From Chlorobiales bacterium (GTDB lineage: Bacteria > Bacteroidota > Chlorobiia > Chlorobiales > JACMJS01), in contig JACMJS010000079.1 of assembly GCA_014380515.1 (NCBI GenBank), positions 1-37,401 on the forward strand: DNA of 37,401 nucleotides, read 5' to 3'. Positions within the stretch are counted from its first letter, which is position 1; every line of letters begins with the position of its first letter. Made by a program: the position numbers and the translations under genes. The notes beneath the pieces were generated by a model. It searched no databases, was not told where the DNA came from, and saw only the letters and a program-made list of their open reading frames with translations. Positions 9,501 to 37,401 of the stretch are shown here, piece by piece.

Positions 9501-9592
9501 GTTGAATGGTTCGATTGAATAGTGAAATGTTGAGTTGCAACGAGTCAATGCGATTCTTCCGAGAGGTTTCGGAGAGGGCGGATGAAGTGCCG

Positions 9593-9623
9593 CAAATATA
9601 CACGCCGTTGCGCCTGAAATAAA
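9593..9623 (-). promoter_or_regulatory. Promoter of the macroglobulin gene
   Basis: On the minus strand TATATTTG (9600-9593) matches the Bacteroidota -7 box, with TTTA (9623-9620) 19 nt upstream, a 3-of-4 match to the -33 TTTG. The leader to the ATG at 9500 is about 85 nt. The -33 element abuts the helicase terminator. Confidence 0.55.
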
Positions 9624-9653
9624 AAAAGCCCGCTCACAACGAACAGGCTTTTT
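9623..9653 (-). terminator. Rho-independent terminator of the DEAD-box helicase
   Basis: Read on the minus strand, AAAAAGCC (9653-9646) pairs with GGCTTTTT (9630-9623), with further wobble pairing GTTC/GAGC inside, followed by TTTTTTTATTT. It lies about 160 nt after the helicase stop at 9814. Confidence 0.75.
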
Positions 9654-9738
9654 GCTTTTTAAAAAGCGTGCTATAAACGATCCCCGCTTTAGTTGAGCTT
9701 GACGAAACGGGTTTCGCAAGGCGAGGTGTCCGCAGGAC

Positions 9739-9804
9739 GGGGCGGTTGGAACGAATGCAATTTCTCCAACCACCCCTGCGCTCCTCCTTATTCAAGGCGG
9801 GGAG
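9739..9804. repeat. Intergenic double palindrome, dispersed repeat
   Basis: GGGGCGGTTGGA (9739-9750) pairs with TCCAACCACCCC (9765-9776) with one mismatch. It is directly followed by CTGCG and a second imperfect palindrome, CTCCTCCTTATTCAAGGCGG plus GGAG (9781-9804). The CTGCG plus CTCC-TTATTCAA-GGAG part recurs at 23981-24006 and, shortened, at 26254-26273, so this is a repeat family. It lies within 10 nt of the helicase stop. Confidence 0.65.
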
Positions 9805-12654: not shown

Positions 12655-13506
12655 TTACTTGGCTTGCAGTTCATCGATGAGCGCGCTGGCTTCCTTCTTG
12701 GAGAGACCTTTTTGAAGTCGCTCTTCGTAGGCTTCACGGTCGCGGTCGCCCAAATCTTTCAGGCTGAGCAGTTTCGTGATGAGCGAAACCTGTTTCTCGG
12801 TCGCAGGCACAGCATTGCGATGCACGGATGCGCTATCCGTTTCTGCGGGACGGTCGCCGGTGTTGTGCTCGCTCGGCTTGGCTGCCGGAGCGTTGATGGG
12901 TGCAGCGAACGGTGCCGGAACGGGTGCGTTGAAAGATTGCTCGCCCGCGTTGCCGTCAGCGAAATCGATATGCTCGTCCAAGCCCATCTTGCGATAAAGC
13001 CTGGCGATAATCGCTTCGTCCGATTCCTTGAAACGGTAGCGGTTCTCTAATTCAAACCACACGTTGGGCGTGGTGTAAAGGTAGCGTCCAATCCCGAACT
13101 CCGAGGCCGCACGCTTGAACGAATCGCTCGATGCGGATTTGAAAAGTTCAGACTTGGTAGCGTCGCCTGTCGCTTCGCCGTATTCGGAACGCACGATGGT
13201 TTCGGCCACATTGGAATCGGCGTCGCTGCCTTTGGCTGCGGCATCTAAAAGATGCTTGAGCGTGATGGTTGTTTTCACGACCACGCGCTGCGGTTCAGCC
13301 AGCACGACTTCCTTTTCGCTGTTCCACGCATAGCCGAACTCGGCGCAAACTTCGTCGAGCCGTTTTTGGGCGGTCTGCCGCTCAATGTAGAGCAGGGCGA
13401 TAGCGCGTTGTGAATTTTCCGGAGTGGAGTAAGAGTTTCCGATGCGGGTGGAAATCTCTGAAGCCTTGAAGGGACGCGTCAAGGCGCGCATTGCGTTGAT
13501 AATCAT
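12655..13506 (-). CDS. Rad52/Rad22-family single-strand annealing protein
   Basis: 283 residues. The signature lies near residues 120-145: KSASSDSFKRAASEFGIGRYLY, split here as KSASSDSFKRA and ASEFGIGRYLY. This is the hallmark of the Rad52/22 double-strand-break repair family of phages and bacteria (DdrA-like). A proline/alanine-rich linker follows (about 190-230), then a C-terminal helical module (ATEKQVSLITKLL ... SKKEASALIDEL) seen at the end of many phage annealing proteins. It likely anneals ssDNA in recombination. No RecT/exonuclease partner, integrase or phage gene is near, so it is either domesticated or the last trace of a mobile element. Start: ATG at 13506; Met6 is an alternative. 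Confidence 0.8.
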   Translation of the reverse strand: MIINAMRALTRPFKASEISTRIGNSYSTPENSQRAIALLYIERQTAQKRLDEVCAEFGYAWNSEKEVVLAEPQRVVVKTTITLKHLLDAAAKGSDADSNVAETIVRSEYGEATGDATKSELFKSASSDSFKRAASEFGIGRYLYTTPNVWFELENRYRFKESDEAIIARLYRKMGLDEHIDFADGNAGEQSFNAPVPAPFAAPINAPAAKPSEHNTGDRPAETDSASVHRNAVPATEKQVSLITKLLSLKDLGDRDREAYEERLQKGLSKKEASALIDELQAK

Positions 13507-14246: not shown

Positions 14247-14254
14247 TATCTTTG
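14247..14254 (+). promoter_or_regulatory. Possible -7 box before adenosine deaminase
   Basis: TATCTTTG fits TAnnTTTG; there is no clear TTTG 19 nt upstream. It would start the mRNA only about 12 nt before the ATG at 14273. Confidence 0.35.
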
Positions 14255-14272
14255 CAAGAAACAACAGACGAC

Positions 14273-15367
14273 ATGCAAAAACTTTCCGAAGAAACGCTCC
14301 GGCAAATGCCAAAGGTGCTGCTGCACGAGCACTTGGACGGCGGCTTGCGTCCCGCTACCGTGATTGAACTCGCCAAAGATCAAGGCTACACCGCACTCCC
14401 CACCACCGACGCCACAGACCTCGCCGACTTTTTTTTCAAAGGTGCTAGCCGCGGCAGTCTGCCGGAGTATCTCGAAGGCTTCCGCCACACAACCGCCGTG
14501 ATGCAAACGCCCGAAGCCTTGGAGCGCGTCGCCTACGAATCGGTCGAAGACCTAATGCTTGACGGCGTGTGCTACGCCGAAATCCGGTTCTCGCCCGTCT
14601 TCCACACCGACAAAGGCATGCACTGGGAAGACATCGTGAAGGCCGTCCTCAAAGGCTTCGAGCAGGGCGAGAGTGAGTTCGGCACGAAAGTTCGTCTGAT
14701 CATCAGCGCGATGCGAAACATGAATTTGTCGGAGGACATGGCGCAACTAGCCATCAGTTTCCGCGACCGCGGCGTCGTTGGCTTCGACCTTGCGGGCGAA
14801 GAAGGCGGCTATCCGCCCAAGAAACACGTCGATGCGTTTCATTTTATTCAGCGCGAAAACTTCAACATCACCGTTCATGCGGGTGAAGCGTTCGGGAAGG
14901 AATCCATCTGGCAGGCGATTCAATGGTGCGGCGCACACCGCATCGGCCACGCCACGCGGCTCATCGAAGATATGGCGGTGCTCAACGGCGAGGTGATCAA
15001 GATGGGCACGCTCGCTCAGTATGTTTTAGACAAGCGCATCGCGCTCGAGATTTGTTTGTCCTCCAACATTCACACGGGCGCCGCGGAAAGTTTCGCCTTG
15101 CATCCGTTCTGGATTTTTCACAAATCAAAGTTCCGCACCACGCTCAACACCGACAACCGCCTGATGTCCAACACGACGATGACGAAAGAATACAAACTCG
15201 CGCATGAGTTTTACGGCCTCTCAATGGACGACCTCGAAAAAATTTCGATCAACAGCATGAAGAGCGCCTTCGTGCCCTACAGCGAACGCATCGAGATGAT
15301 TTACAACACCATCAAACCGCGCTTCGCCCTGTTGCGTGAGGAACTTTCGCTGCGCACCGTTTCCTGA
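14273..15367 (+). CDS. add: Adenosine deaminase
   Basis: 364 residues from the ATG at 14273. A TTG at 14252 is in frame but less likely. It is a metal-dependent amidohydrolase of the adenosine/AMP deaminase family, converting adenosine to inosine in purine salvage. Motifs in order: the zinc-ligand motif HEHLDGG near the start, HAGEA, IGHATRL, CLSSNIHTG and NTDNRLMSNTT; the last is typical of bacterial Add proteins and carries the catalytic Asp. The protein is full length and cytosolic. The stop is 10 nt before the first TPR histidine kinase, so the two are very probably cotranscribed. A link between adenosine level and that kinase's sensor is possible but unsupported. Confidence 0.93.
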   Translation: MQKLSEETLRQMPKVLLHEHLDGGLRPATVIELAKDQGYTALPTTDATDLADFFFKGASRGSLPEYLEGFRHTTAVMQTPEALERVAYESVEDLMLDGVCYAEIRFSPVFHTDKGMHWEDIVKAVLKGFEQGESEFGTKVRLIISAMRNMNLSEDMAQLAISFRDRGVVGFDLAGEEGGYPPKKHVDAFHFIQRENFNITVHAGEAFGKESIWQAIQWCGAHRIGHATRLIEDMAVLNGEVIKMGTLAQYVLDKRIALEICLSSNIHTGAAESFALHPFWIFHKSKFRTTLNTDNRLMSNTTMTKEYKLAHEFYGLSMDDLEKISINSMKSAFVPYSERIEMIYNTIKPRFALLREELSLRTVS

Positions 15368-15377
15368 GTTTCCGCCG

Positions 15378-17540
15378 ATGAGCGACATGATTCACAACCA
15401 CATCAACCTTATTGACGCCCTTGAAGCCGCACTGGACAAGGCCTCGGGACCGAACGCTCAAATTGCCGCCCGAAACAAACTCGCGTGGGAACTTCGGCGC
15501 AGCGATCCCGAGCGTTCGGTATCTCTGGCGTTGCAGTCGCTCGCGCAGACCGAAACCCTAGCCGATGATATTCTTGTCGCCGATGCCACCCGCGCGATTG
15601 CTTTCAACCATTCTTTGAAAGGCGATCTCTCCGAAGCCGTAAGATTGGCCACGGAAATAAAACAAATCTATGTGCAGCATGGCGACCACTATGGCGAGGC
15701 GTGGGCACTCTACATCCTCGGCTCCGTGAGCGAGAGGCAAAGCAATTATGAGGACGCCTTCAAACACTACGGGGAAAGTTTGAGCATTCAGCAGGCGATT
15801 AAAGACCGCGATGGCGAGGCAACCTCACTCATGGGCATTGCCACCGTTCATGCCCGCTCCGGTGAAGGTGAAAAAGGGCTTGATTATTACTATCGCAGTT
15901 TGCGGTTGCGCGAACAGTTGGATGATGTTCAGGGTCAAGGGCTTTCGTGGATGGGCGTCGGCATTGCGTGCTCGCAGATGGGCGATTACGCCGCCGCCCT
16001 CGATGCGTATCAAAAAAGTTTGAAGTTCATCAAGCAAACCAGCGACCGCCGAACCGAAGGTTTAATCTACATCAACATCGGCACCGTGCACGGGCGTCTC
16101 AATCAAGATGAAAACGCGCTCCGCTATTTTTCCGACGGCAAAAACATCTTCGACCGCTCCGGCAATAAACACGAGGCTGCACGGGCACTGCTCAACATGG
16201 GTATCGTTCACGCTCATCTGAAAGCATATCGGGAAGCGATTGCGGCGTTCGAAGGTAGCCTCGATGTGTTCAAAGCTACCGGCGACCGTGATGCACAAAG
16301 CGCGATATACAACTGTCTCGGCGATTTGAAGACCAGCGAAAAAGAGTATGATCAGGCAAAAGCCTTCTACGATCGCGCCCTCGACATCCGCACGGAGATC
16401 GGCAACAAACGCGGTCAGACGGAATCTTACAACAGTTTGGGTTTCCTGCTCTCAGCGCAAGATCGCCACGCCGAAGCCCGCGAACACTTTGAAAAAGCCA
16501 TAGAACTCGGCCTGCGTATCGGCATGAAAGATTTGGTACTCATTTCTTACGAACTCATCTCGCTCGCCTGCGAAAAGTTGGGCGATACCGCCGCCGCACT
16601 TTCGTATTACAAATCTTTTCACCGCCTCAAAGAAGAAATATTCAGCGAGCAAGCCGACCGGCGGATGAAAATTTTGATGGTTCAAGCGGGCGTCGAAAAG
16701 TCGCAAAAGGAAGCCGAACTCTACCGCGAAAAAATGGTGAGCCTCGCCGAAGCCAACATGATGCTCTACGAAGCGGGTCAACTCAAAACCGAACTGCTCT
16801 CGATAGCGGCGCACGATTTGAAAAATCCGTTGCAATCCATTCTCGGTTTCGCCGAACTGATTCGGGAAAACCTGACGGGCGCGAAAACTGCTACCGGGCA
16901 AGCCGGTACCGACATGCCGGTCGTAAACATGGCGACGCATATTACGGCGGCGTCGCAGCGGATGCTCGCGCTCATCAACGATTTACTGAGCGAGGCGTCG
17001 CTGGAAAGCCAGAGTTTGGAACTGCGTCAATCGCCGTTTGATTTAGTCGCAATGATTCGCAACGTGGCCGAAGCCGCCGCGCCGCAAGCGGGGCAGAAGT
17101 CGCAAACGCTGATTTTTGAAATGCCGGAAACCTTGATATTCACCGGCGACGCGGAACGGCTTCGGGAAGTCATTGAAAATCTCATCGGCAATGCGATCAA
17201 ATATTCGCCGGACGGCAAACGGATTTGGGTGAAAATTGAAAAAAGGATGAAGGATGAATCGGGAACGATGAAAAAAGAAAAAGAAGAAAATGAATTTCTC
17301 GAGTCATCCGTTATTCGCGTCAGCGTGCGCGACGAAGGACAGGGAATGAGTGCGGAAGATTTGAAAAAAGTCTTCGGCAAGTTTCAGCGGCTCAGTGCAA
17401 GGCCGACGGGCGGCGAATCGTCGACCGGCTTGGGACTTTCCATTGCCAAGCAACTGACCGAACTGCACGGCGGCACGCTCCGCGTAGAATCGGCGGGCGT
17501 GGGACTTGGCGCAACCTTCATCGCCGAACTCCCCGCCTGA
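15378..17540 (+). CDS. TPR-sensor histidine kinase 1 (cytosolic)
   Basis: 720 residues from the ATG at 15378. The first 420 residues are a series of TPR repeats (patterns such as YGEAWALYILGSVSERQ and EARALLNMGIVHAHL). A coiled linker leads to HisKA with His479 in AAHDLKNPLQS, then HATPase_c with N-box ENLIGNAIKYSPDG, G1 VRDEGQGM and G2 ESSTGLGLS. There is no signal peptide or membrane span, so the sensor is cytosolic and likely binds a peptide or protein. The signature FGKFQRLSARPTGGESSTG is shared with four other kinases in this window. An Arg/Lys/Glu-rich insertion (about 622-645) in the ATP-binding domain looks repeat-derived. There is no receiver domain and no adjacent regulator gene. 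It follows adenosine deaminase by 10 nt. Confidence 0.92.
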   Translation: MSDMIHNHINLIDALEAALDKASGPNAQIAARNKLAWELRRSDPERSVSLALQSLAQTETLADDILVADATRAIAFNHSLKGDLSEAVRLATEIKQIYVQHGDHYGEAWALYILGSVSERQSNYEDAFKHYGESLSIQQAIKDRDGEATSLMGIATVHARSGEGEKGLDYYYRSLRLREQLDDVQGQGLSWMGVGIACSQMGDYAAALDAYQKSLKFIKQTSDRRTEGLIYINIGTVHGRLNQDENALRYFSDGKNIFDRSGNKHEAARALLNMGIVHAHLKAYREAIAAFEGSLDVFKATGDRDAQSAIYNCLGDLKTSEKEYDQAKAFYDRALDIRTEIGNKRGQTESYNSLGFLLSAQDRHAEAREHFEKAIELGLRIGMKDLVLISYELISLACEKLGDTAAALSYYKSFHRLKEEIFSEQADRRMKILMVQAGVEKSQKEAELYREKMVSLAEANMMLYEAGQLKTELLSIAAHDLKNPLQSILGFAELIRENLTGAKTATGQAGTDMPVVNMATHITAASQRMLALINDLLSEASLESQSLELRQSPFDLVAMIRNVAEAAAPQAGQKSQTLIFEMPETLIFTGDAERLREVIENLIGNAIKYSPDGKRIWVKIEKRMKDESGTMKKEKEENEFLESSVIRVSVRDEGQGMSAEDLKKVFGKFQRLSARPTGGESSTGLGLSIAKQLTELHGGTLRVESAGVGLGATFIAELPA
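17241..17314. repeat. Repeat-derived insertion inside histidine kinase 1
   Basis: Within the ATP-binding domain the DNA reads AAAAGGATGAAGGATGAA, then a purine-rich run ATGAAAAAAGAAAA, ending in TCATCCGTTATTCG. It matches the insertion in the fifth kinase at 33466-33568 (shared ATGAAAAAAGAAAA and GAAGAAAATGAA), and its GGATGA/TCATCC ends resemble the intergenic repeat at 24036-24060. Confidence 0.5.
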
Positions 17541-17542
17541 CT

Positions 17543-17560
17543 TTCACGGCGAGCCGTGAA
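17543..17560. other. Small perfect hairpin between kinases 1 and 2
   Basis: TTCACGG-CGAG-CCGTGAA sits 2 nt after the stop of kinase 1 and is followed by TCTTTGG, a weak T-tract. It may be an attenuator or mRNA 3' end rather than a strong terminator. Confidence 0.35.
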
Positions 17561-17653
17561 TCTTTGGCCGCTTCCGCAGATCGCCAGCCTTCTTTTGCTC
17601 CGTGATTACTTTGCAAACCCAAACCGTTCCAAACGGGGTCAGTCCGTATCAAA

Positions 17654-19699
17654 ATGAATCTTCGATGGTTACCTGATTCCATATTTTCGGCGCGACCCGG
17701 AGCCGTGCGGCTGGTTGCACGCTCTGTGATACGCGGGGCGGCGTTTGGTTTGTGGCTCATCGCCGGTGTGCCGGTGATTGCCGCGGCGCAACAGTCTACA
17801 TCCGCCGACAGCCTGCTCCGGCGGCTTGCAGTGCTGACGCTGCCGGACACCGCGCGAGCCAATTTGCTCAACAACCTTGCCAGCGCGCTCGAATACCGTT
17901 CGCTCGATTCGTCGCTCCGCTATGCCCGCGAAGCGTTGCGGCTTTCCGACAGCCTGCGCTACGATAAAGGTCAGGCCTACGCGCGGCTCATTATCGGTTA
18001 CGATTATTATCAGCAAGGCCGCTACGATGTGGCGATGCAAGAATACGTCATCGCCAGCAATCTCTCCGAGCGGATCGGCTATACCTACATCGCCGCGTTC
18101 AGTCAGGCGGGCATCGGCAACATTTCCATGCAACAAAAAAAATTAAGCGACGCCCTTGCATATTATTTGACGGCGACCCGGCAGTTTCAGAAACTCGGCG
18201 ACCTCGACGGTCTCGAAACCATGGCGCTCAACATTGGCCGCATCTACCAGCAACAGAAAAAATTTGCCGAAGCCACCCGATACTTCGAACAAAGCGACAG
18301 CTTGGCCAAGATTTTAGGCGATCAAAGTGCCCGGTCATATGCCTTGCATTACATCGGGCTGACACTCGATGAACAGCAACAGTATCAAGCCGCGCTCACG
18401 TATCATTTGAACGCGCTCCGGCTCGCGCGGGCGGGCGGGGATAAACGCTATCTCATCACCGCGCTCATTACGCTCGGAGCGGCCTACGGCCAGCAAAAGA
18501 ATTATGCGGCGGCCATGCGTTATGCCTCGGAGGGATTGGCGAACGCCGAGACGAGCGGCTACGCGGGCGAACTCAAGGAAAGCTACCGCGTCCTTTATGA
18601 TCTGAACCAGCAGCAGGGAAACTTCAAAGCCGCGCTCGAATTTTATCAGCGATACACCGCCGCCAACGATTCGATTTTTTCCGACGAAAGCAACCGGCGC
18701 ACGCTTGAGTTACAAACGCGGTTTGAGACGCTTGCCAAAGAGCAGCAGATCGCCATTCTTCAAAAGTCAAATGAAGTGCAGTCCTTGGAGGGTGAGCGGC
18801 AGCGCAACGCACTCATCGGCGGTATTGCCTTCGCGGCGGCTTTGGCGTTGCTGTTCGCCAACCGCTACCGGCTCAAACGTCAAGTGGCTGATGCCCTGCG
18901 CGAAAAGAACGACGCGCTCACGCGGCTCAATCACGACCTCGCCGGCGCCAATCAACTCAAAACCGAACTGCTTTCCATCGCCGCACATGATTTGAAAAAT
19001 CCGCTGCAAAGCGTGATGGGGTTTTCCGAACTCATCCGCGAAAGCGAGCCGCCCGCATCCGCCGTCTCGGAGATGGCCGCCATGATTCGAACGTCGTCGG
19101 AGCGGATGCTGGCGATTATTTCCGATCTGTTGCAAACGGCGGCGATGGACTCGGGAAAATTAAATTTGAATCGCAGCCGCGTTGATCTGGCCGGTTTGGT
19201 GGAGGCTGCGGTGCGATACAACAGGCCGCAGGCCGCCAAGAAGTCGCAGCATCTCGACTTGTCGCTGGGCGCGGAGGATATGTCGGCCAGTGTTGATGCC
19301 GAGCGGATGCTCGAGGTGATTGACAATCTCATCAGCAACGCGATCAAATATACGCCGCAAGGCAAACGGGTTTGGGTGAGCGTAGCGCAGTTGCGACGCA
19401 CAGATGTTGGATTGCGCGTTCAAGAAGGAAAAAAACTTCAATCGGCAACCGGCGCGCCGCGCGCCGCAATTCGAATCTCCGTGAAAGATGAAGGGCAAGG
19501 ACTGACGGCGGAAGACATGACGAAAATCTTCGGCAAGTTTCAACGGCTCAGTGCAAGGCCGACGGCGGGCGAATCGTCGACCGGCTTGGGACTTTCCATC
19601 GTCAAGCAATTGGTTGAACTTCACGGCGGCAGCGTGCAGGCCGAGAGTGAAGGAAAAAATAAAGGCAGCACTTTCACGGTTGACCTGCCGAACGCTTAA
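17654..19699 (+). CDS. TPR-sensor histidine kinase 2 (periplasmic TPR, one TM)
   Basis: 681 residues. The N-terminus has a basic stretch followed by a signal sequence (GAAFGLWLIAGVPVIAAA, about 28-46). TPR repeats extend to about 340. A coiled segment follows, and one membrane span (about 384-402, LIGGIAFAAALALLFA). HisKA has His445 in AAHDLKNPLQS, and HATPase_c has ISNAIKYTPQG, VKDEGQGL and ESSTGLGLS. The TPR domain is therefore outside the cytoplasmic membrane, unlike its three neighbours: the same scaffold appears to look in the other direction. A 22-residue extra segment (about 577-600) sits in the ATP-binding domain where kinase 1 has its insertion, but with unrelated sequence. There is no receiver. 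It lies 28 nt upstream of kinase 3. Confidence 0.92.
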   Translation: MNLRWLPDSIFSARPGAVRLVARSVIRGAAFGLWLIAGVPVIAAAQQSTSADSLLRRLAVLTLPDTARANLLNNLASALEYRSLDSSLRYAREALRLSDSLRYDKGQAYARLIIGYDYYQQGRYDVAMQEYVIASNLSERIGYTYIAAFSQAGIGNISMQQKKLSDALAYYLTATRQFQKLGDLDGLETMALNIGRIYQQQKKFAEATRYFEQSDSLAKILGDQSARSYALHYIGLTLDEQQQYQAALTYHLNALRLARAGGDKRYLITALITLGAAYGQQKNYAAAMRYASEGLANAETSGYAGELKESYRVLYDLNQQQGNFKAALEFYQRYTAANDSIFSDESNRRTLELQTRFETLAKEQQIAILQKSNEVQSLEGERQRNALIGGIAFAAALALLFANRYRLKRQVADALREKNDALTRLNHDLAGANQLKTELLSIAAHDLKNPLQSVMGFSELIRESEPPASAVSEMAAMIRTSSERMLAIISDLLQTAAMDSGKLNLNRSRVDLAGLVEAAVRYNRPQAAKKSQHLDLSLGAEDMSASVDAERMLEVIDNLISNAIKYTPQGKRVWVSVAQLRRTDVGLRVQEGKKLQSATGAPRAAIRISVKDEGQGLTAEDMTKIFGKFQRLSARPTAGESSTGLGLSIVKQLVELHGGSVQAESEGKNKGSTFTVDLPNA

Positions 19700-19727
19700 C
19701 TTCTCCTCCTAACGTTTTTAATTCAAG

Positions 19728-21848
19728 ATGACTGTAAATACATCCGGCCTCGATGAAACGCTCGCATCCGCAGCGGGTTCAAGCGAAGCCAAACGGCTCA
19801 ACGATCAAGCCGCGGAACTGGCGCAGAACGATCCCTCGCGGGCACGCGCACTGGCCGAATCCGCCGAAGCCCTTGCGATCGAGTATCACAGCGTAGCCGC
19901 ACTCGCCCAAAGTTTGGCGACGCAAGCGTACTGCAATTATTTACTCTCCAACTACGAACACGCTTTATCGCAATCGTTTTTGGCGCTCTCCAGCTTTCAA
20001 TCGGTACGCGACGCGAAGGGCGAACTTTTCGTGCTCAAAAACATCGGCAACGTTTATCACCGCATCGGCGACTACAGCAAGTCGCTCCGCTTTCAGGAAC
20101 GCAGTTTAGACCTCGCCCGCCAATTGGGCGAGCGGCGCGAAGAAGCCGCTGCGCTCAACAACATCGGCGGCGTTTATATCTCGCTCTCCGATCACGCCGC
20201 CGCGCTCGAATATCTTTATGAATCGCTGACGCTCTTGCAGCGGCTCGGCGAACGCGCGCTTCAAGCCAGCACGCTCGGCAACTTGGGCGCAGTCTATGAA
20301 TATCTCGACGACGACCGCAAAGCCCTTGAGTGTTACGACGAAGGTCTTTCGCTGACGAGCCGCACCGGCACGACGCCCATCGAAGCCTTGCTCTTGCGGA
20401 ACAAAGCGAAAGTTTATGAGAAGCACGGCGACTACGAAGCCGCACTGTCGTTTTATCACCAGAGCCTCGATATCCGCCGCGCGATCGGCGATAAGCACGG
20501 CGAAGCAAGTTCCTTGCACGGCGTCGCGGGCGCCTATCTGAAACTGGGCGACTACGCGCAGGCCACGCATTTTTTCGGGCAGTCGCTTTCGCTGCGCTGT
20601 TTCATCGGCGACCGGATGGGCGAAGCCGAAGTGCTGCTCGACATCGGCAAACTGTGCCTCAATCAACCGCTGCTCGAACTGCCCAAAGAACTACTCATGC
20701 AATTGGCGCCGGGCAAAGCGGCCAAAGTTTCCGAATACTGTTTGCTGCGGTCGCTTGCGGGCGCGGAGGCGGCGGGCGTTAAGCGGACGCTTTATCAAGC
20801 GTCGCAATTGCTCGCGGAGTTTTATGAGCAGCAGGGCGATTACGGCAAAGCGATCATGTACCTGAAAAAATATCACGCCGCCGAGCGCGAAATTTTCAAC
20901 GACGAACAATCGCAGCGGACGCGCGCCCTTCGAAACACCTTCGATATTTCGCAGGCCAAAAAAGAATCGGAAATTTTCCAACTGCGCAACGAGAAACTCA
21001 CGAAAGCCAACGACGCGCTCGCCGAAGTCATCTATCAGTTGGAACGCTTGAAAGTTACCGCCGAAGCGCATCGCAAGGCGGCGGAAGACGCGAGCGCGTT
21101 CAAGTCGGAGTTTCTCGCCATCGCCGCTCACGATTTGCGCAACCCGCTTTCGGCCATCAACGGTTTCGCCGAACTGATCCGTGAATCCGAGAGCCTCGGT
21201 TCGGTTAAGAACATGGCGGAAATTATCGGACAGTCGTCGGGGCAAATGTTTTCGCTGATCAGTGATTTGCTCCGCACTGCGCAATTGGATGCGGGAAAGT
21301 TGGAACTGCGGAAGTCGCTGGTCAACTTGTCGCTGCTGGTGGAATATGCGGTGTCGCGGGTCGAACCGATGATTCAAAAAAAATCGCAGCGGATCAACTT
21401 AAGCGTCTCGCCGAACGTGCGGTTGCTCATTGACGAAGAGCGGATGCGCGAAGCGATTGACAACATCATCGGCAACGCGGTCAAGTATTCGCCGCAGGGC
21501 AAAACGATTTGGGTCAGTCTCGCGCGCGGCCACCGGTTCAATCCGCACACCGAAGCCGACGCCGAAAAGCTTTCCGTTGCCGCGCCCGAACTCACGCCCG
21601 AAGTGCAGCAGGTCGTCCGCATCGAGGTGCGCGATGAAGGACAGGGACTTGATCTGGACGATCTTAAAAAAGTCTTCGGCAAATTTCAGCGGCTCAGTTC
21701 GCGTCCGACGGGCGACGAGAGTTCGACCGGCTTGGGACTTTCCATCGTCAAGCAATTGGTCGAACTTCACGGCGGCAAAGTGTGGGCGGAGTCGCAAGGC
21801 AAAGACATGGGCTCCGTGTTCATCATCGAATTGCCGGTGTATGAATAG
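19728..21848 (+). CDS. TPR-sensor histidine kinase 3 (cytosolic)
   Basis: 706 residues without signal peptide or membrane span. At least seven TPR repeats fill residues 30-390 (for example NNIGGVYISLSDHAAALEYL and HGVAGAYLKLGDYAQATHFF). A coiled linker (LEFYEQQ..., AHRKAAEDASAFKSEF) leads to HisKA with His468 in AAHDLRNPLSA, followed by HATPase_c with IGNAVKYSPQG, VRDEGQGL and ESSTGLGLS. It is the most diverged member in the H-box (LRNPLSA rather than LKNPLQS). A 25-residue acidic insertion lies before the G1 box. No receiver or partner regulator is adjacent. It is probably cotranscribed with kinase 2 (28-nt gap). Confidence 0.92.
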   Translation: MTVNTSGLDETLASAAGSSEAKRLNDQAAELAQNDPSRARALAESAEALAIEYHSVAALAQSLATQAYCNYLLSNYEHALSQSFLALSSFQSVRDAKGELFVLKNIGNVYHRIGDYSKSLRFQERSLDLARQLGERREEAAALNNIGGVYISLSDHAAALEYLYESLTLLQRLGERALQASTLGNLGAVYEYLDDDRKALECYDEGLSLTSRTGTTPIEALLLRNKAKVYEKHGDYEAALSFYHQSLDIRRAIGDKHGEASSLHGVAGAYLKLGDYAQATHFFGQSLSLRCFIGDRMGEAEVLLDIGKLCLNQPLLELPKELLMQLAPGKAAKVSEYCLLRSLAGAEAAGVKRTLYQASQLLAEFYEQQGDYGKAIMYLKKYHAAEREIFNDEQSQRTRALRNTFDISQAKKESEIFQLRNEKLTKANDALAEVIYQLERLKVTAEAHRKAAEDASAFKSEFLAIAAHDLRNPLSAINGFAELIRESESLGSVKNMAEIIGQSSGQMFSLISDLLRTAQLDAGKLELRKSLVNLSLLVEYAVSRVEPMIQKKSQRINLSVSPNVRLLIDEERMREAIDNIIGNAVKYSPQGKTIWVSLARGHRFNPHTEADAEKLSVAAPELTPEVQQVVRIEVRDEGQGLDLDDLKKVFGKFQRLSSRPTGDESSTGLGLSIVKQLVELHGGKVWAESQGKDMGSVFIIELPVYE

Positions 21849-21873
21849 ATTTTTTCTTTGTGTCACTCCGGTC

Positions 21874-21932
21874 AAGTCGCAATGACCGCGAAATGGAAAA
21901 ACGTCTTATTGTGATTGCGACTTTTGTTTTTA
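21874..21932 (+). terminator. Terminator-like structure between kinases 3 and 4
   Basis: AAGTCGCAA (21874-21882) pairs with TTGCGACTT (21915-21923), followed by TTGTTTTTAC. The 32-nt loop is large for a classical terminator, so this is a moderate call. It would split kinase 4 from kinases 2-3. Confidence 0.45.
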
Positions 21933-21981
21933 CAAATCCCCACCTCTGCGCAACCAGCACAATTTTTTACGATCACCATCC

Positions 21982-23973
21982 GTGCCCGATTTAAAATCGC
22001 CGCCGAAACTCTCTTCGGCTGTTCAGCAACTCCGCGAGAAACTCCGCACCTTGGAGCCAGGCAGCGAGCGCGCCGATGTGCTCAACCTGATCGCGGCGGA
22101 ACTCAAATACAGCGAACCGCTTCGCGCGCAAGACGCCGCCAAAGAATCCTACGCGATTTCAACCGCGCTCGGATACACCCGAGGCGCGGCCTACAGCCTC
22201 ATCAACAGCGGCTACGCGGAGTGGCGGCTCGGTTTGTTCGGCAGCGCGCTCACCAAATCGCTCGATGCCCTTTCACACTTTGAACAGACCGCCGATAAAT
22301 ATGGTGAGGCCGACGCGCTCAATACCATCGGCCTGATTAGCAATTCGCTCGGCGACGGCGAAAAGGCAATGCACTACTACGAACAGTCGCTGAAAATCCG
22401 TGAAGCCACCGGCGACCGGCAAGGCATGGCGGTTTGTCTCAACAACATCGGTGAGTTTCACCTCAGCAACGGCGACTATGCGGGCGCACTCGAGTGTTAT
22501 ACGCAAAGCCTGAAACTCAAGGAAGGCGACGGCGGCTGGGGACGGGCACGGGCGTTGAGCGGTCTCGGTCTCGTCTACCTGAAAATGGGCGACGCCGCCA
22601 ATTCGCTGCGTTTCTACACCGACGCGCTGCGGCTGCGCGAGGAGATCGGCGACGTCGCCGGTCAGGCCGCATCGCTCAACAGCCTTGCGACCGTCTATCA
22701 GCACGGACACGACCTTGCAGCGGCGGAAGAACATTACTTGCAAAGTTTGAAAGTGTGCGAAGGCGAAGACCTCCGCACCGAGTATGTAGAAGCGTTGCTC
22801 GGTTTGGGAATGCTGTTTACCGAGTCGCATAAAACCCAGCGGGCGTTGCAGTACTTGCATCAAGCGTTGGCCGTGCCCAAGTCGGCGGCGGGCACGGAAG
22901 AAAACGTCAAGGAACTTACCGCATATGTGCATGGCGCCTTGGCCGATGCCTACCGGCAGGCCGGAGATTATGCGAGCGCGTTGGAACACTTCGAACGCTA
23001 TCATACGCTGGAGAAAGAATTCTTTAACGACGAAAGCGCGCGCAAAACACGTTTGCTTCAACTGCGCTATGAAGCCGAGCGACTCGCCCGCGAAACCGAG
23101 CAGCGACGCACCGAAACGAATTTGCTTAAAACGAAAAACGAGGAACTGGCCGAAGCCTTGCGCGAAACCGAACGGCAACGCGCCGAAGCCGAATGGCAAC
23201 AAGCCGAGGCGGAACGTCAACAGGCCGAAGCCGAGCGTCAGCACCGCGAAGCGGAACGGATGCGCGGCCTTTCGGAAAGCGCAAGTCAACTCAAAACGGA
23301 ATTGCTCAACATCGCCGCACATGATTTGAAGAATCCGTTGCAATCGATTTTGGGATTTGCCGACTTGCTGCGCGAAACGATTGAACAGGAAGAAACCCAA
23401 AACCTGCCGCTCAAGGCGATGGCCGGATCGATCTTCACATCGTCGCGACGGATGCTTTCGCTGATCGATGGATTGCTTGAGGCCGCGACCGTCGAGAGCG
23501 ACCGGTTCGAAATTCATCCGATGCCGATGGACTTCGCCGCGTTGGTGCGCACGCTCGTCAGTTCGATGGAGCCGCTCGCGGAGCGCAAACAGCAATCGAT
23601 CATCCTCACCGCGCCCGAAAGCCTGATGTTGACCGCCGATGCCAAGTGGCTGATGGACGCCGCCGAAAATCTTTTGAGCAATGCGATCAAATATTCGCCG
23701 CCGGGCAAACGGATTTGGGTGGATGTACTTCGCAACGCAACGCAAGCCGAACTCCGCGTGCGCGACGAAGGGCCGGGACTCGGTGAAGACGATTTGAAAA
23801 AAGCCTTCGGCAAGTTTCAACGTCTTTCGGCAAGGCCGACGGGCGGCGAATCATCGACCGGCTTGGGACTTTCCATCGTCAAGCGGCTTGTAGAACTGCA
23901 CGGCGGCAAGGCATGGGCGGAATCGGACGGCAAAGAAAAAGGCGCGACGTTCGTGCTCACATTGCCGGTGTGA
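21982..23973 (+). CDS. TPR-sensor histidine kinase 4 (cytosolic)
   Basis: 663 residues, starting at GTG (21982): no upstream in-frame ATG exists and the next Met lies deep inside the TPR region. TPR repeats run from about 20 to 360 (LNTIGLISNSLGDGEKAMHY, LNSLATVYQHGHDL). A strong coiled coil follows, built from four 7-residue units (397-424). HisKA has His447 in AAHDLKNPLQS; HATPase_c has LSNAIKYSPPG, VRDEGPGL and ESSTGLGLS. It lacks the insertion before the G1 box that its three neighbours carry, so it may show the ancestral form. No membrane segment and no receiver. Last of the four tandem paralogs. Confidence 0.92.
   Translation: MPDLKSPPKLSSAVQQLREKLRTLEPGSERADVLNLIAAELKYSEPLRAQDAAKESYAISTALGYTRGAAYSLINSGYAEWRLGLFGSALTKSLDALSHFEQTADKYGEADALNTIGLISNSLGDGEKAMHYYEQSLKIREATGDRQGMAVCLNNIGEFHLSNGDYAGALECYTQSLKLKEGDGGWGRARALSGLGLVYLKMGDAANSLRFYTDALRLREEIGDVAGQAASLNSLATVYQHGHDLAAAEEHYLQSLKVCEGEDLRTEYVEALLGLGMLFTESHKTQRALQYLHQALAVPKSAAGTEENVKELTAYVHGALADAYRQAGDYASALEHFERYHTLEKEFFNDESARKTRLLQLRYEAERLARETEQRRTETNLLKTKNEELAEALRETERQRAEAEWQQAEAERQQAEAERQHREAERMRGLSESASQLKTELLNIAAHDLKNPLQSILGFADLLRETIEQEETQNLPLKAMAGSIFTSSRRMLSLIDGLLEAATVESDRFEIHPMPMDFAALVRTLVSSMEPLAERKQQSIILTAPESLMLTADAKWLMDAAENLLSNAIKYSPPGKRIWVDVLRNATQAELRVRDEGPGLGEDDLKKAFGKFQRLSARPTGGESSTGLGLSIVKRLVELHGGKAWAESDGKEKGATFVLTLPV
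23170..23253 (+). repeat. Four 21-bp repeats encoding a heptad coiled coil
   Basis: Four consecutive 21-nt units encode ERQRAEA, EWQQAEA, ERQQAEA and ERQHREA (residues 397-424 of kinase 4). Each is one coiled-coil heptad, so gain or loss of a unit would preserve both frame and helix phase between sensor and kinase core. Confidence 0.75.
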
Positions 23974-28225: not shown

Positions 28226-29164
28226 TTAATACGTCGGGCGCATCTGCAAGCGTTTGCGGGCGGCGGCCAGCGCATGCGCCAGTGAAACATTTGCGCTCAA
28301 AGCGGCGGGCGACAGCGGCGAGACGATGGGCGTGATGCGCAGTGAACTCTCCTCAGCCACCGGCTCGGTTGATACCCGGGCGAAATGCTTTTCAATCGCC
28401 AACTTCAACGAATCTTGAATCGCCTTGCGTTGAAACGGCTTGATGAAATAGCGGAACACCTGACCTTCGTTGATCAGGCGGATCGCCGTCTCCGAATCCT
28501 GACTGTCGCTAATTAAAATCGGCACGACGTCGCGGCATTGCTCGTGAAGCAACACCAGAAAATCAACACCGTCGGCATCGGCGAGATTGACTTCCGTGAT
28601 GAGCGCGGCGACGGGCGTTGTCGTGAGCACCTTGAACGCCTCACTGACCGAACCCGCCAAATGGACTTGATAATCTTGCGCGAACAAATCATTGAGCGCG
28701 GCCAGATGCAGATGATTGGTGTCAACGAAAAGGACGTGAGGTTTTGATGACGGCGCGGGCTTGGGCGAAACGGCATTGCGGGCTTTCTGAAAGCGTTCGT
28801 TCATTTCGCAGCCGAGCGCGATCGTTTCGCGCAGCCGGTCGGTGTTCCATGGCTTGCTGACGAATCGAAACACTTCGCCGGTATTGACCGAATTGATAAT
28901 GCCTTCAAGATCGCTGTAGCCAGTAAGTAAGATGCGGATGATGTCGGGATTGATTTCTTTGACGTGCCGCAAGAGTTCGTGGCCGAGCATCTCCGGCATC
29001 CGCTGATCGCTGACGATGACTTGCACGTCGTTTGCTTTGATAAGATCAATAGCGGTGTAGCCGTTTTGCGCAGTAAGGATATTGTAATGACGTTGAAAGG
29101 CGAACGAGAGCGCGGAAAGTATCGGCTGCTCGTCGTCGACAAATAAAATGGTTTGCTTCTTCAT
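28226..29164 (-). CDS. Tandem double-receiver response regulator without output domain
   Basis: 312 residues. Receiver 1 (5-125) is complete: acidic pair Asp10-Asp11, phosphoacceptor Asp53 in VSDQRMP, Thr81 in LTGYSD, Lys104 in SKPW. Receiver 2 (142-262) is degenerate: one of the acidic pair is lost (FVDTN), Glu191 stands where the phosphoacceptor Asp should be (ITEVNL), Ser replaces Thr, and Lys in IKPF remains. The last 50 residues are an Ala/Pro-rich tail, with no DNA-binding, HD-GYP or GGDEF domain. It probably passes phosphate or a conformational signal to other proteins, with receiver 2 possibly locked in an active-like state by Glu. The GAF histidine kinase gene lies 98 nt upstream on the same strand and is its likely partner. 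Confidence 0.88.
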   Translation of the reverse strand: MKKQTILFVDDEQPILSALSFAFQRHYNILTAQNGYTAIDLIKANDVQVIVSDQRMPEMLGHELLRHVKEINPDIIRILLTGYSDLEGIINSVNTGEVFRFVSKPWNTDRLRETIALGCEMNERFQKARNAVSPKPAPSSKPHVLFVDTNHLHLAALNDLFAQDYQVHLAGSVSEAFKVLTTTPVAALITEVNLADADGVDFLVLLHEQCRDVVPILISDSQDSETAIRLINEGQVFRYFIKPFQRKAIQDSLKLAIEKHFARVSTEPVAEESSLRITPIVSPLSPAALSANVSLAHALAAARKRLQMRPTY

Positions 29165-29262
29165 TGCGAAAAATTGTTTTCTGATAAAAGATTTTTATCG
29201 CCGTTTCATCGCTATTAACAGGGCTATTGCCGTTTGCGTTGCGGCGGTGTAGCAAGCGAGGC

Positions 29263-30990
29263 TTAGTCGGCAAAAATATCTGCACTTTTTTTCTTGCCGT
29301 CCGTCTGAAACGGCGGCTTGGGCAAGGCCGGTTCGGGTGCCGCCGCGGTGGGTTCATCGGCAAAGAGCGTGCTCGGCTGCAATGTCGCTTCGGCGGCGAT
29401 AGGCAGTTCGATTTTGAATGCCGTGCCTTCACCCACGGTGCTGGTTACGGAAATCTTGCCGCCGTGCTGCGCGATGATTTTATAGGCGATTGAAAGTCCA
29501 AGCCCCGTGCCTTTGCCGACGGGTTTCGTCGTAAAGAACGGCTCGAAGATTTTTTTCAGATTTTCCGGCGCGATGCCGTGGCCGTTGTCCGAAACTTCAA
29601 TCACTACGCGGTCGCCGTCGGTTGTGGTCGTCAGCGACGTCGCAATCGTGATGCGTCCGCGGGTGCCTGCCTTTTCAGTGCCGGTGCGGTCGCTGGCTTG
29701 TGCGGCGTTCGTGATGAGGTTGAGAAAAACTTGGTTGAGCTTGGCCGGATAACATTTGACGAGCGGCAAATCGCCATAGTACTTGACGACATCAATGCGG
29801 TGCTTGAGCAAGTTGCCCGCAATTTTCAGCGACGAATCAAGCCCCGAGTTGAGGTCGGCTTTTTTCATATCGGCTTCGTCGAGCCGCGAGAAATCTTTGA
29901 GGTTGAGGATCAAATCTTTGATGCGGTCGATGCCATCGATGGATTCGCGGAAACGGTCTTGAGCCAAATCATAAAAAGCAGCGTCGGCGTCGGCGAGCAT
30001 CGCTTCGTTATCTGCGACTTTGGCGGCAAGCGCGTCGTAGTCGCCGGTGGTCAGCAAGTGCTGCATCGTGCGGAAGGAATCGATCAGCGTTTTCATTTCC
30101 GTGTGCAGTTCGCCAAGTTCGGCCACGTTGCTGCGGACGTAGCCGAGCGGCGTGTTGATCTCATGCGCGAGACCTGCCACCATTTGCCCGAGCGACGCCA
30201 TCTTTTCGGATTGCACCAATTGATCTTGCGTCGAAGTCAGGGTAGAAAGCGTTTCCTCCAGCCGCGTGTTTTTCCGCGTGAGTTCCATCTGCTTGCGCCG
30301 CAATTCCAGCCGGGCGGCAACTTCGGCGGCGAGCGTTCGCAGCGATTCCTTTTGCATCTCCGAAAGCTGTTGCGGTTCGGGACTGATCACGCACAGCGTA
30401 CCGAGATTGTAACCGTCGGCGTTGGTCAGCGGCGCACCGGCGTAGAAGCGGATGTGCATGTCGCCGGTTACCAGCGGATTGGCGACGAAGCGCGGATCGT
30501 TGAGGGCGTTGGGAATTTCGAACACTTTCTCCTCCATAATCGCGTGCTGACAAAAGGAAATGTCGCGCGGCGTTTCGGTGGCGTCCGTACCGACTTTGGA
30601 TTTGAACCATTGCCGGTCTCCGTCAATCAGGCTCATCAGCGCAACGGGCGTACCGCAAATTTGCGAGGCCAGTTTCGTCAGCGCATCAAATTCGGCTTCG
30701 GCCAAAGTGTCCATCACGTTGTAACTTTCAAGCGCGGCCAGTCGCTCGGTTTCATTGGCCGGAACCGGCAACGGATCGGTGGAAGGCAATACTACCGGTG
30801 GAACTACGGGGGATTGAACGGCCTGAGGCGATGATTGAGGCGAAGGCCTAGCGGCCTCGGCGGAAAGCGATGCCGCGGCCAGAGGGCGGCTTTCGGTAAC
30901 GGCGGAATCAACGGCGGATTTTTTGGCGAAGAAGTTTTTGAGAGGAGCGAGCCACGGTGTCGATAAAAAGGCCATGCGGAATCGGTTCAT
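29263..30990 (-). CDS. GAF-domain sensor histidine kinase
   Basis: 575 residues, ATG at 30990 (Met6 is an alternative). A Pro/Ala/Ser-rich low-complexity stretch (35-80) precedes a GAF domain (about 95-235; [31 protein letters not shown]). A coiled segment follows, then HisKA with His276 in [11 protein letters not shown], then HATPase_c ([30 protein letters not shown]). No membrane span: a soluble sensor, ligand unknown. The core differs from the five HDLKNP-type kinases in this window, so it belongs to another subfamily. The C-terminal tail is Pro/Ala-rich. It is the upstream half of a kinase-regulator pair with the double-receiver gene at 28226. Confidence 0.9.
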
Positions 30991-32112: not shown

Positions 32113-32199
32113 TTTGAAAAAGGCTTGCGGCAGCCCGTAAATAAAGGCGCGAACCGCAGGTATTTGCCCCGTCAAAAGATGAATCCGCGTCGCCGGTGC

Positions 32200-32207
32200 T
32201 ATATTTG
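32200..32207 (+). promoter_or_regulatory. -7 box of the 6-TM histidine kinase gene
   Basis: TATATTTG matches TAnnTTTG exactly, with no good -33 element. It would put the transcription start near 32214, which rules out the GTG at 32196 as the translation start and supports the ATG at 32253. Confidence 0.45.
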
Positions 32208-32252
32208 GCTCAGAGATTTAGTGAACACTTGAACGGCTTCCCCCAAGAACAG

Positions 32253-33842
32253 ATGATTGACACCGTGTTTCAACGCTTGCAGCAATCGTGGCGGCGGGCG
32301 ACGCTTGCGTCGCTCGAAGCTTCCTACCGCGCGGGTTTTCTGGCGGAACTGGCCGTGAGCAATCTGGCTCGCGGCCGGGTGTTTTCGTTGTTGCTCGCCC
32401 TGCTGCACCTCCCGCTCGTCTATCTCGATCTTCAGCGCGTTAATCCCTCGCAAGGCTACACGTATCTTTTTTATATGCACCTTGCCGTGATCGGCGGGTG
32501 CGCGGTGCTCGCCGCACTGACATGGCTCGCAAGGCCGAAGTCCGTCAAGGAAATAACGGCGTGGCATCAAACGCTCGGCGTACTTTGCGGCGCGGTTTTA
32601 CTTTTATGGACGGCGGGCGTTTCCATCGTCGATCAATTCATTCACGGCGAAATTACGGTCTACATCATCGGCGCATTCGGCATTGCGATTGCATTTCTCT
32701 ACCGCACACGCACCAGTTTCATACTCTACTTCGTTTCGTATCTCGTGCTCATTGTTGGGTTGATGCAAGTGCAAGCCGACCCTGATAAACTGACCGGCAA
32801 CCTCACCAACGCCACCGCACTTGCGGTGCTTGCTTTTATTCTTTCGCGCGTGGTATTTGTCGGACAAATGCAAAGTTACTATACCCGCAAGCGCGAAGAG
32901 GATTTGCGCATCGTCGTCGAAGAACAGGCGATGCACTTGCTCCGCGAAAACGAACGCGCCGAAATCGCGCTAAAAAAATCGGGACAGTTGAACGACGATC
33001 TTGAAGCGAGCAATCTTGCCCTGCGTGAAGCCAACGAATTGAAATCCGAACTGCTCTCCATCGCCGCGCACGATTTAAAGAATCCGTTGCAAACCATCAT
33101 GGGCTTTGCTGAACTCTTGATCTCCGAACCCGGCGCGTCGTCCGCGACACGCAAGAAACTCGGCGTCATTTCGGAATCATCGAACCGGATGCTTTCGCTG
33201 ATCAACGAACTGCTGATGAACTCCGCCCTCGACAGCGGTAAAATCGAACTCAACAAATCGGAAATTTATCTTGAGCGGTTGGTCGGATTCATCGCGCTGG
33301 GGCAAGAGCAACTCGCGTCGCGCAAGAATCAAAAAATTATTCTTCAGGCCGATAACGCCTGCATGGTTCATGGCGACGAAAGCCGTCTCCGCGAAGTCAT
33401 TGAAAATCTTGTGAGCAACGCGATCAAGTATTCGCCGCACGGTAAAACGATTTGGGTCAAGGTTGAAAAAGGGATGAGGGATGCGATTGAGCCTGCCGAA
33501 ATGAATTTCGGGGGAAGGATGAAAAAAGAAAATGAAGAAAATGAACTTCATTCTTCATCCTTTATTCGCGTGAGCGTGCGCGATGAAGGCCCCGGGCTGA
33601 CGGACTTGGACAAGCAAAAAATCTTCGGCAAGTTTCAACGCCTCTCGCCGCGTCCGACGGGCGGCGAAAGTTCATCAGGACTTGGCCTCGCCATCGTCAA
33701 GCAATTGGTCGACTTGCACGGCGGCCATGTCCGCGTCGAAAGCGAGTGGGGCAAAGGCTGCACCTTCATCGTCGATCTGCCCGCACTGCGTCCCCTCATC
33801 GCCGCCGAAACCGCGAAGCAATCCGCATCGCCCGCCGCATAA
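32253..33842 (+). CDS. Histidine kinase 5 with six-TM sensor
   Basis: 529 residues from the ATG at 32253 (a GTG at 32196 overlaps the likely promoter). Six hydrophobic spans lie between about 40 and 210 (for example FSLLLALLHLPLVYLDL, LGVLCGAVLLLWTAGVSIV). A coiled linker follows, then HisKA with His273 in AAHDLKNPLQT, and HATPase_c with VSNAIKYSPHG, VRDEGPGL and ESSSGLGLA. The catalytic core is the same family as the four TPR kinases at 15378-23973, but the sensor is a membrane bundle. A 27-residue extra segment in the ATP-binding domain (about 405-438) shares sequence with that of kinase 1. No receiver domain or adjacent regulator. A different N-terminus on the same core indicates domain shuffling. 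Confidence 0.9.
   Translation: MIDTVFQRLQQSWRRATLASLEASYRAGFLAELAVSNLARGRVFSLLLALLHLPLVYLDLQRVNPSQGYTYLFYMHLAVIGGCAVLAALTWLARPKSVKEITAWHQTLGVLCGAVLLLWTAGVSIVDQFIHGEITVYIIGAFGIAIAFLYRTRTSFILYFVSYLVLIVGLMQVQADPDKLTGNLTNATALAVLAFILSRVVFVGQMQSYYTRKREEDLRIVVEEQAMHLLRENERAEIALKKSGQLNDDLEASNLALREANELKSELLSIAAHDLKNPLQTIMGFAELLISEPGASSATRKKLGVISESSNRMLSLINELLMNSALDSGKIELNKSEIYLERLVGFIALGQEQLASRKNQKIILQADNACMVHGDESRLREVIENLVSNAIKYSPHGKTIWVKVEKGMRDAIEPAEMNFGGRMKKENEENELHSSSFIRVSVRDEGPGLTDLDKQKIFGKFQRLSPRPTGGESSSGLGLAIVKQLVDLHGGHVRVESEWGKGCTFIVDLPALRPLIAAETAKQSASPAA
33466..33568. repeat. Repeat-derived insertion inside histidine kinase 5
   Basis: AAAAAGGGATGAGGGATG at the left and TTCATTCTTCATCCTTT at the right form an imperfect inverted repeat around a purine-rich run containing ATGAAAAAAGAAAATGAAGA. 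All is in frame within the ATP-binding domain. It is homologous to the segment at 17241-17314. Confidence 0.5.
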
Positions 33843-36984: not shown

Positions 36985-37401
36985 CTATTGCTTCTTGCGC
37001 AAGTCGCTGAGGGCTTTGAGTTTATCGAGTGTGCCTTGCGGCGCGGTCTCCGCCGAAGCGGGCGCGGGTGTTTCCGCAGCGGGCTTGGATGCCATCGCAC
37101 CAAGGCTTGCGTTACCGCGGCTTTTAAGCCCGCTATCGATGCGGCGCCGATATTCGGTGACGGCTTCGGCAAGTACTTCGCGCAGCGCTTTACCGTCCCA
37201 TGGCTTTTGGATGTAACGGAAAATTTGACCTTCGTTGATCAGTCGTACGATGTCTTCGACGTCGGTGTAAGCGGTCATTAAAATTTTCGGAACCATCGGG
37301 GTAACGTCTTGCGACTCGACCAAAAAATCCGCGCCTGATTTTTTCGGCATGCGTTGATCGCTGAGCACGACGGCGACGAACGCATCTTCGCGCAACACCG
37401 C
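36985..37401 (-). CDS. Response-regulator receiver protein, 5' end beyond the window
   Basis: Partial: the N-terminal part, including the acidic pair, lies past 37401. Visible are the phosphoacceptor region LSDQRMP, TAYTD (the conserved Thr), RLINEGQIFRYIQKPW (conserved Lys), and a Pro/Ala-rich tail (ASKPAAETPAPASAE) ending in KLKALSDLRKKQ. No output domain follows the receiver. It is of the same SDQRMP...KPW subfamily as receiver 1 at 28226-29164, which suggests paralogs. Confidence 0.85.
   Translation of the reverse strand, partial: AVLREDAFVAVVLSDQRMPKKSGADFLVESQDVTPMVPKILMTAYTDVEDIVRLINEGQIFRYIQKPWDGKALREVLAEAVTEYRRRIDSGLKSRGNASLGAMASKPAAETPAPASAETAPQGTLDKLKALSDLRKKQ

Follow-up and report, generated by a model that had tools for sequence, protein, structure and literature searches.

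Four adjacent TPR-sensor histidine kinases in a Chlorobiales genome belong to a lineage-specific expansion of orphan kinases

The four consecutive histidine kinase genes K1–K4 (Table 1) belong to a genuine expansion of orphan kinases specific to this lineage, and their array is of a known kind, not a new type of system. Going by sequence comparisons, we lean towards the reading that they are orphan members of an expanded and dispersed family, that their TPR sensors would be switched by ligands, and that K1, K2, K4, the fifth member K5 and several paralogs elsewhere in the genome would share one or a few regulators. The window, i.e., the whole stretch of DNA analysed, is the complete contig C126 (37,401 bases) of a draft genome of 3.57 Mb in 420 contigs.

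Table 1. Kinase, receiver and flanking features of the window
Feature	Coordinates	Strand	Description	Basis
ada	14252..15367	+	adenosine deaminase homolog, directly upstream of K1	Pfam
K1	15378..17540	+	cytosolic TPR-HisKA-HATPase_c kinase, 720 aa	Pfam, structure model
K1 alternative GTG start	15336	+	would overlap ada	
K2	17654..19699	+	signal peptide, extracytoplasmic TPRs, one TM, HisKA-HATPase_c, 681 aa	Pfam, hydrophobic spans
K3	19728..21848	+	cytosolic TPR-HisKA-HATPase_c kinase, 706 aa	Pfam
K4	21982..23973	+	cytosolic TPR-HisKA-HATPase_c kinase, 663 aa, GTG start	Pfam
REC-REC response regulator	28226..29164	-	most likely dedicated partner of the GAF kinase, not of K1–K4	Pfam, paralogous pairs
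GAF kinase	29263..30990	-	GAF-HisKA-HATPase_c, different family from K1–K5; directly upstream of the REC-REC gene	Pfam
K5	32196..33842	+	6-TM sensor, HisKA-HATPase_c, same catalytic family as K1–K4, 548 aa	Pfam, hydrophobic spans
Receiver fragment	36985..37401	-	truncated by contig end	Pfam

An earlier note on this DNA had described four consecutive full-length paralogs with TPR repeats, HisKA and HATPase_c domains and a common motif, with neither a receiver in them nor a regulator gene among them, and Pfam bears this out: all four match TPR_12 (E from 5e-19 to 4e-47), HisKA (5e-11 to 2e-15) and HATPase_c (6e-24 to 8e-26), share FGKFQRLS.RPT..ESSTGLGLS and have no match to a receiver domain. 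Its division into three cytosolic proteins and a second one with a signal peptide and one membrane span agrees with the hydrophobic spans, which begin near residues 24 and 384 in K2 and are absent from K1, K3 and K4; by prediction the K2 TPR superhelix lies outside the membrane and the other three are cytosolic. The fifth paralog with a 6-TM sensor was likewise recovered as K5, which combines the same catalytic core with six hydrophobic spans and has no TPR match in Pfam. All five kinases are of class I (HisKA), each with an AAHDL[KR]NP H-box, an N box, DEGxG and a G[TS]GLGL-type G2 box (5 of 5), and none is a hybrid, since Pfam finds neither receiver nor Hpt domains in K1–K5. The intergenic gaps are 10 bp between ada and K1 (from the ATG at 15378), 113 bp between K1 and K2, 28 bp between K2 and K3 and 133 bp between K3 and K4, with 265 bp from K4 to a YfbK-like vWA gene; promoter and terminator scans gave signal about equal to that in shuffled sequence. 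By simple arithmetic, 18 family genes placed at random among about 3000 would yield roughly 0.1 adjacent pairs and essentially zero runs of four; the K1–K4 array is thus non-random. Antisense to K4 there is a 515-aa open frame (22273-23820, minus strand), probably a codon-bias effect.

Searching the genome with the K1 core gave about 18 close family members plus more distant kinases; genome totals were 54 HATPase and 70 receiver matches. Outside the array, TPR sensors occur in C100, C382, C391a, C184, C181 and probably C72, 7TMR-DISM sensors in C47 and C373, Reg_prop with Y_Y_Y in C391b (and, by similarity, C41), and membrane-span sensors in K5, C352, C374 and C218. A second tandem pair of the family is located on C391. 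The only family member in this genome adjacent to a receiver is C181, whose neighbour is a REC-LuxR gene (the listed ORF overlaps the end of the kinase). The TPR sensor type is also joined to a GGDEF output, in C399, which matches a TPR-GGDEF protein of a relative (G002) at 37% over its length.

Members of the TPR-kinase profile (E ≤ 1e-60) were found in 12 of the 98 genomes of the order, belonging to three families (the window's own genome, nine of family f2 and two of f3), and in 0 of 86 genomes of family f4; with the catalytic core alone as query, each f2 genome had 13–32 members. Among the matches listed for relatives, at least 13 places had two members within 6 kb (two of these are one pair, seen again in a contaminated assembly) and seven or so were true head-to-tail neighbours; the matches listed contained no further run of three or four adjacent members. 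A receiver lay in the same or a neighbouring ORF for 10 of the 78 family kinases in the fetched relative loci, a lower bound, as receivers were scored with a small receiver profile; a dedicated regulator for each kinase, which the earlier note had named as the pattern that would speak against its idea of many sensors feeding shared receivers, is accordingly seen in a minority of these genes. Hybrids of this family were seen in relatives only, as TPR-kinase and receiver fusions in G001 (L080:3648) and G011 (L078), the former running on, by sequence, into an output domain of LuxR type. TPR sensors recur near ada, with differing output: the gene beside ada encodes a TPR-GGDEF diguanylate cyclase in G001 and G002 (L117:12491-14239, L123:8741-10561) and another TPR kinase in G004 and G019. 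Outside the order, strong core matches in 297 genomes of the phylum lay in single large open frames of 1054–1557 aa. A scan of genome contigs with K1 gave only a weak match, in a Lachnospiraceae contig. A search of the literature on TPR kinases from this bacterial group found nothing to the point.

The idea that several sensors feed shared receivers has indirect support, from the specificity residues discussed below, whereas the receivers that the earlier note had named, at 28226 and 36985, do not hold up as targets. K1–K4 are orphans in that the nearest receiver, the two-REC protein at 28226, lies three genes past K4 on the opposite strand, together with a kinase of its own. Neither named receiver has a further Pfam domain, which agrees with the output-less proteins described before, although the one at 36985 is cut by the contig end. 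The adjoining GAF kinase, absent from the earlier note, heads a kinase-then-REC-REC pair that exists in at least seven genome copies including the window's (L043, L164–L168 and 28226-30990); the paralogs of the window's pair (at least six) are 48–56% identical to it in the kinase and 37–51% in the regulator. On this adjacency and the paralogous pairs we reject the 28226 receiver as the partner of K1–K4, and that the array should feed the two window receivers, for which its proximity (4–13 kb) could be cited, is highly improbable when the first of them sits directly downstream of a same-strand kinase whose pairing is repeated across the genome. The second REC of the 28226 protein has Glu at the phosphoacceptor Asp site (LITEVNL); this residue is E, D or N in the paralogs.

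Six HisKA positions set partner choice, and the B. subtilis orphan kinases KinA (TAGFQL) and KinD (TGGFQL) converge on one receiver (PMC6136694). At these positions K1, K2, C72, C47 and C100 all read QSGFEL, one change separates them from K4 (QSGFDL), K5 (QTGFEL) and C373 (QSGFRL), and K3, with two of the six changed (SAGFEL), is the odd one among K1–K4. We take the positions to be H+7, +8, +11, +12, +14 and +15, having matched the KinA residues of that study to the KinA sequence. Within the array, identity at the six positions is 75%, compared with 44% when six variable core positions are drawn at random (P = 0.024) and 61% at other helix-1 positions, with P from 0.015 to 0.055 across tests of the excess. 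The regulator-paired C181 kinase, in contrast to these orphans, reads SSNFYL, which also speaks for a shared output of the orphans. This match, of the Spo0 many-to-one type, is the main evidence for convergence, of modest strength, and suggests that most of the array kinases report to the same few regulators; such residues can also stay similar by descent alone. The opposite arrangement would be a set of insulated orphans, each with its own distant regulator and no convergence. Orphan regulators that could take the phosphate are present under either reading: 30 receiver matches lie more than 3 kb from any HATPase match (NtrC-, OmpR- and LytTR-like proteins among them, as read from sequence) and are candidates. 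That they are about as many as the kinases without a nearby receiver (27) would suit insulation. The specificity residues of K3, C184, C391a and C352 diverge, as insulation would have it, while five kinases identical at six of six positions argue against it, and on balance we consider insulation unlikely.

As to how the array arose, the earlier note had proposed tandem duplication with sensor swapping, and the two halves fared differently. In a careful maximum-likelihood tree of 64 kinase cores, K1 groups with the dispersed C72 and C382 (support 96/86) and K2, weakly, with C41 (89/80), K3 and K4 fall elsewhere with weak support, and forcing a K1–K4 clade costs 55.6 log units (AU p = 0.018); a tree in which the four are not each other's close relatives, which the note itself had set as contrary to its idea, is thus largely what the 64-row analysis returned. 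From this tree we take the array, without certainty, to be old rather than recently duplicated. A quick 86-row tree did not reject the clade (p = 0.84), although it was badly searched (the constrained tree outscored the free one), and placements were unstable both there and with FastTree. Recent local tandem amplification, the copies swapping sensors later, would account for four adjacent genes of one strand and one architecture and is compatible with the 86-row tree; it fits poorly with identities of just 47–55% among the K1–K5 cores and about 23–31% among the array sensors, as well as with the placement of K1 in the 64-row tree, and we regard it as unlikely. The array itself we read, without certainty, as a local collection of old, diverged members. 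Sensor mixing is supported by the quick 86-row tree, in which TPR, Reg_prop and 7TMR sensors are interspersed among the kinases and at least 11 changes of sensor type are needed. Tracts of 100 nt at 90–92% identity between genes that are 61–65% identical overall (K5/C382, K1/C47, K5/C100 and K1/K2) suggest recombination between paralogs, although some of the tracts fall in strongly conserved motifs.

For the shared regulator that we favour, one candidate emerged from relatives. The closest relative sequence to K2 (62%) and K3 (56%) is the TPR-kinase-REC-LuxR fusion of G001, whose REC-LuxR part has one homolog in the window's genome (E ≤ 1e-8), namely the C181 regulator, at 54% identity; this weakly favours the C181 NarL/LuxR-type protein as a candidate shared regulator. 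The specificity residues of the C181 kinase (SSNFYL) are unlike those of the array and count against its regulator as the common hub; a relative from G007, also regulator-paired, has SSHFYL. A universal role for the order was rejected: three genomes of genus g5, with 15–20 family kinases each, have no NarL-type regulator, and the C181 protein is therefore no general hub. Because the assembly is in 420 contigs, distant partners are not reliably locatable.

A structure model of K1 (mean pLDDT 83.6, pTM 0.59) has paired TPR helices to about residue 401, a single helix from 404 to 506 that is continuous with that of the H-box, and an ATPase domain. The natural folds closest to it are the TPRs of LGN/Pins for the sensor and, for the core, HK853 of Thermotoga maritima, a class I kinase among the nearest solved cores by profile and by fold. 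LGN/Pins proteins have 40-residue repeats and bind partner proteins; unlike K1–K4 they are eukaryotic scaffolds without a kinase domain, and HK853 differs in having no TPR sensor. We infer that the TPR groove would bind a protein or peptide, that this ligand would alter the helix leading into the H-box helix, and that the altered helix would switch autophosphorylation. From K1, K2, K4, K5 and the dispersed C72, C47 and C100 the phosphate would go to one common distant regulator or a few, through which the cell might sum many inputs. The HATPase domain has an in-frame insert between two strands in K5 (33456-33575, plus strand), at 17261-17324 and in C382 (L034); in the K1 model the insert loop (626–642) has pLDDT < 50. 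In K5 and C382 the insert contains a dispersed 27-nt palindromic repeat, GATTGAGCCTGCCGAAATGAATTTCGG, of which the genome has seven further copies, several lying outside any ORF of at least 90 aa.

The earlier note had known of no described system of this kind, a view that comparison with sporulation and myxobacterial kinases does not sustain. On average, 46% of bacterial two-component genes are orphans (PMC4603909). The sporulation orphans (KinA–KinE to Spo0F/Spo0A, and those of Desulfotomaculum) resemble the array in combining varied sensors with near-identical specificity residues; they differ in having scattered genes, many with PAS domains, and a known receiver, whereas here four genes are adjacent, the sensors are TPRs and the receiver is only inferred. 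Myxobacterial two-component sets share with this genome large numbers of unpaired, often cytosolic kinases and complex clusters, and differ in that here one catalytic family is involved, its TPR form limited, among the genomes searched, to three families of one order. A wider proposal, that at least a dozen orphans sharing a catalytic family but differing in their sensors (TPR, 7TMR-DISM, Reg_prop and others) form a single large many-to-one network in a group of non-Chlorobiaceae relatives of the green sulfur bacteria, that constrained specificity residues and recombination among paralogs keep it together, and that arrays like this one are its local clusters, is conceivable and we put it forward tentatively, as something that may well prove wrong. 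The many-sensor idea is plausible and testable. If the residues predict rightly, these kinases are a natural paralog set with about 50% core identity, different sensors and one regulator interface, useful for testing how a kinase family expands without insulating crosstalk, and they offer a clean sensor-swap series on one catalytic core (TPR inside or outside, 7TMR-DISM, propeller).

Upstream of the array, the window also holds a large bacterial alpha-2-macroglobulin gene (3708-9773, with bMG3, MG2, A2M and bMG10 domains) and a Rad52/Rad22-family gene (12655-13506, E = 1.6e-9).
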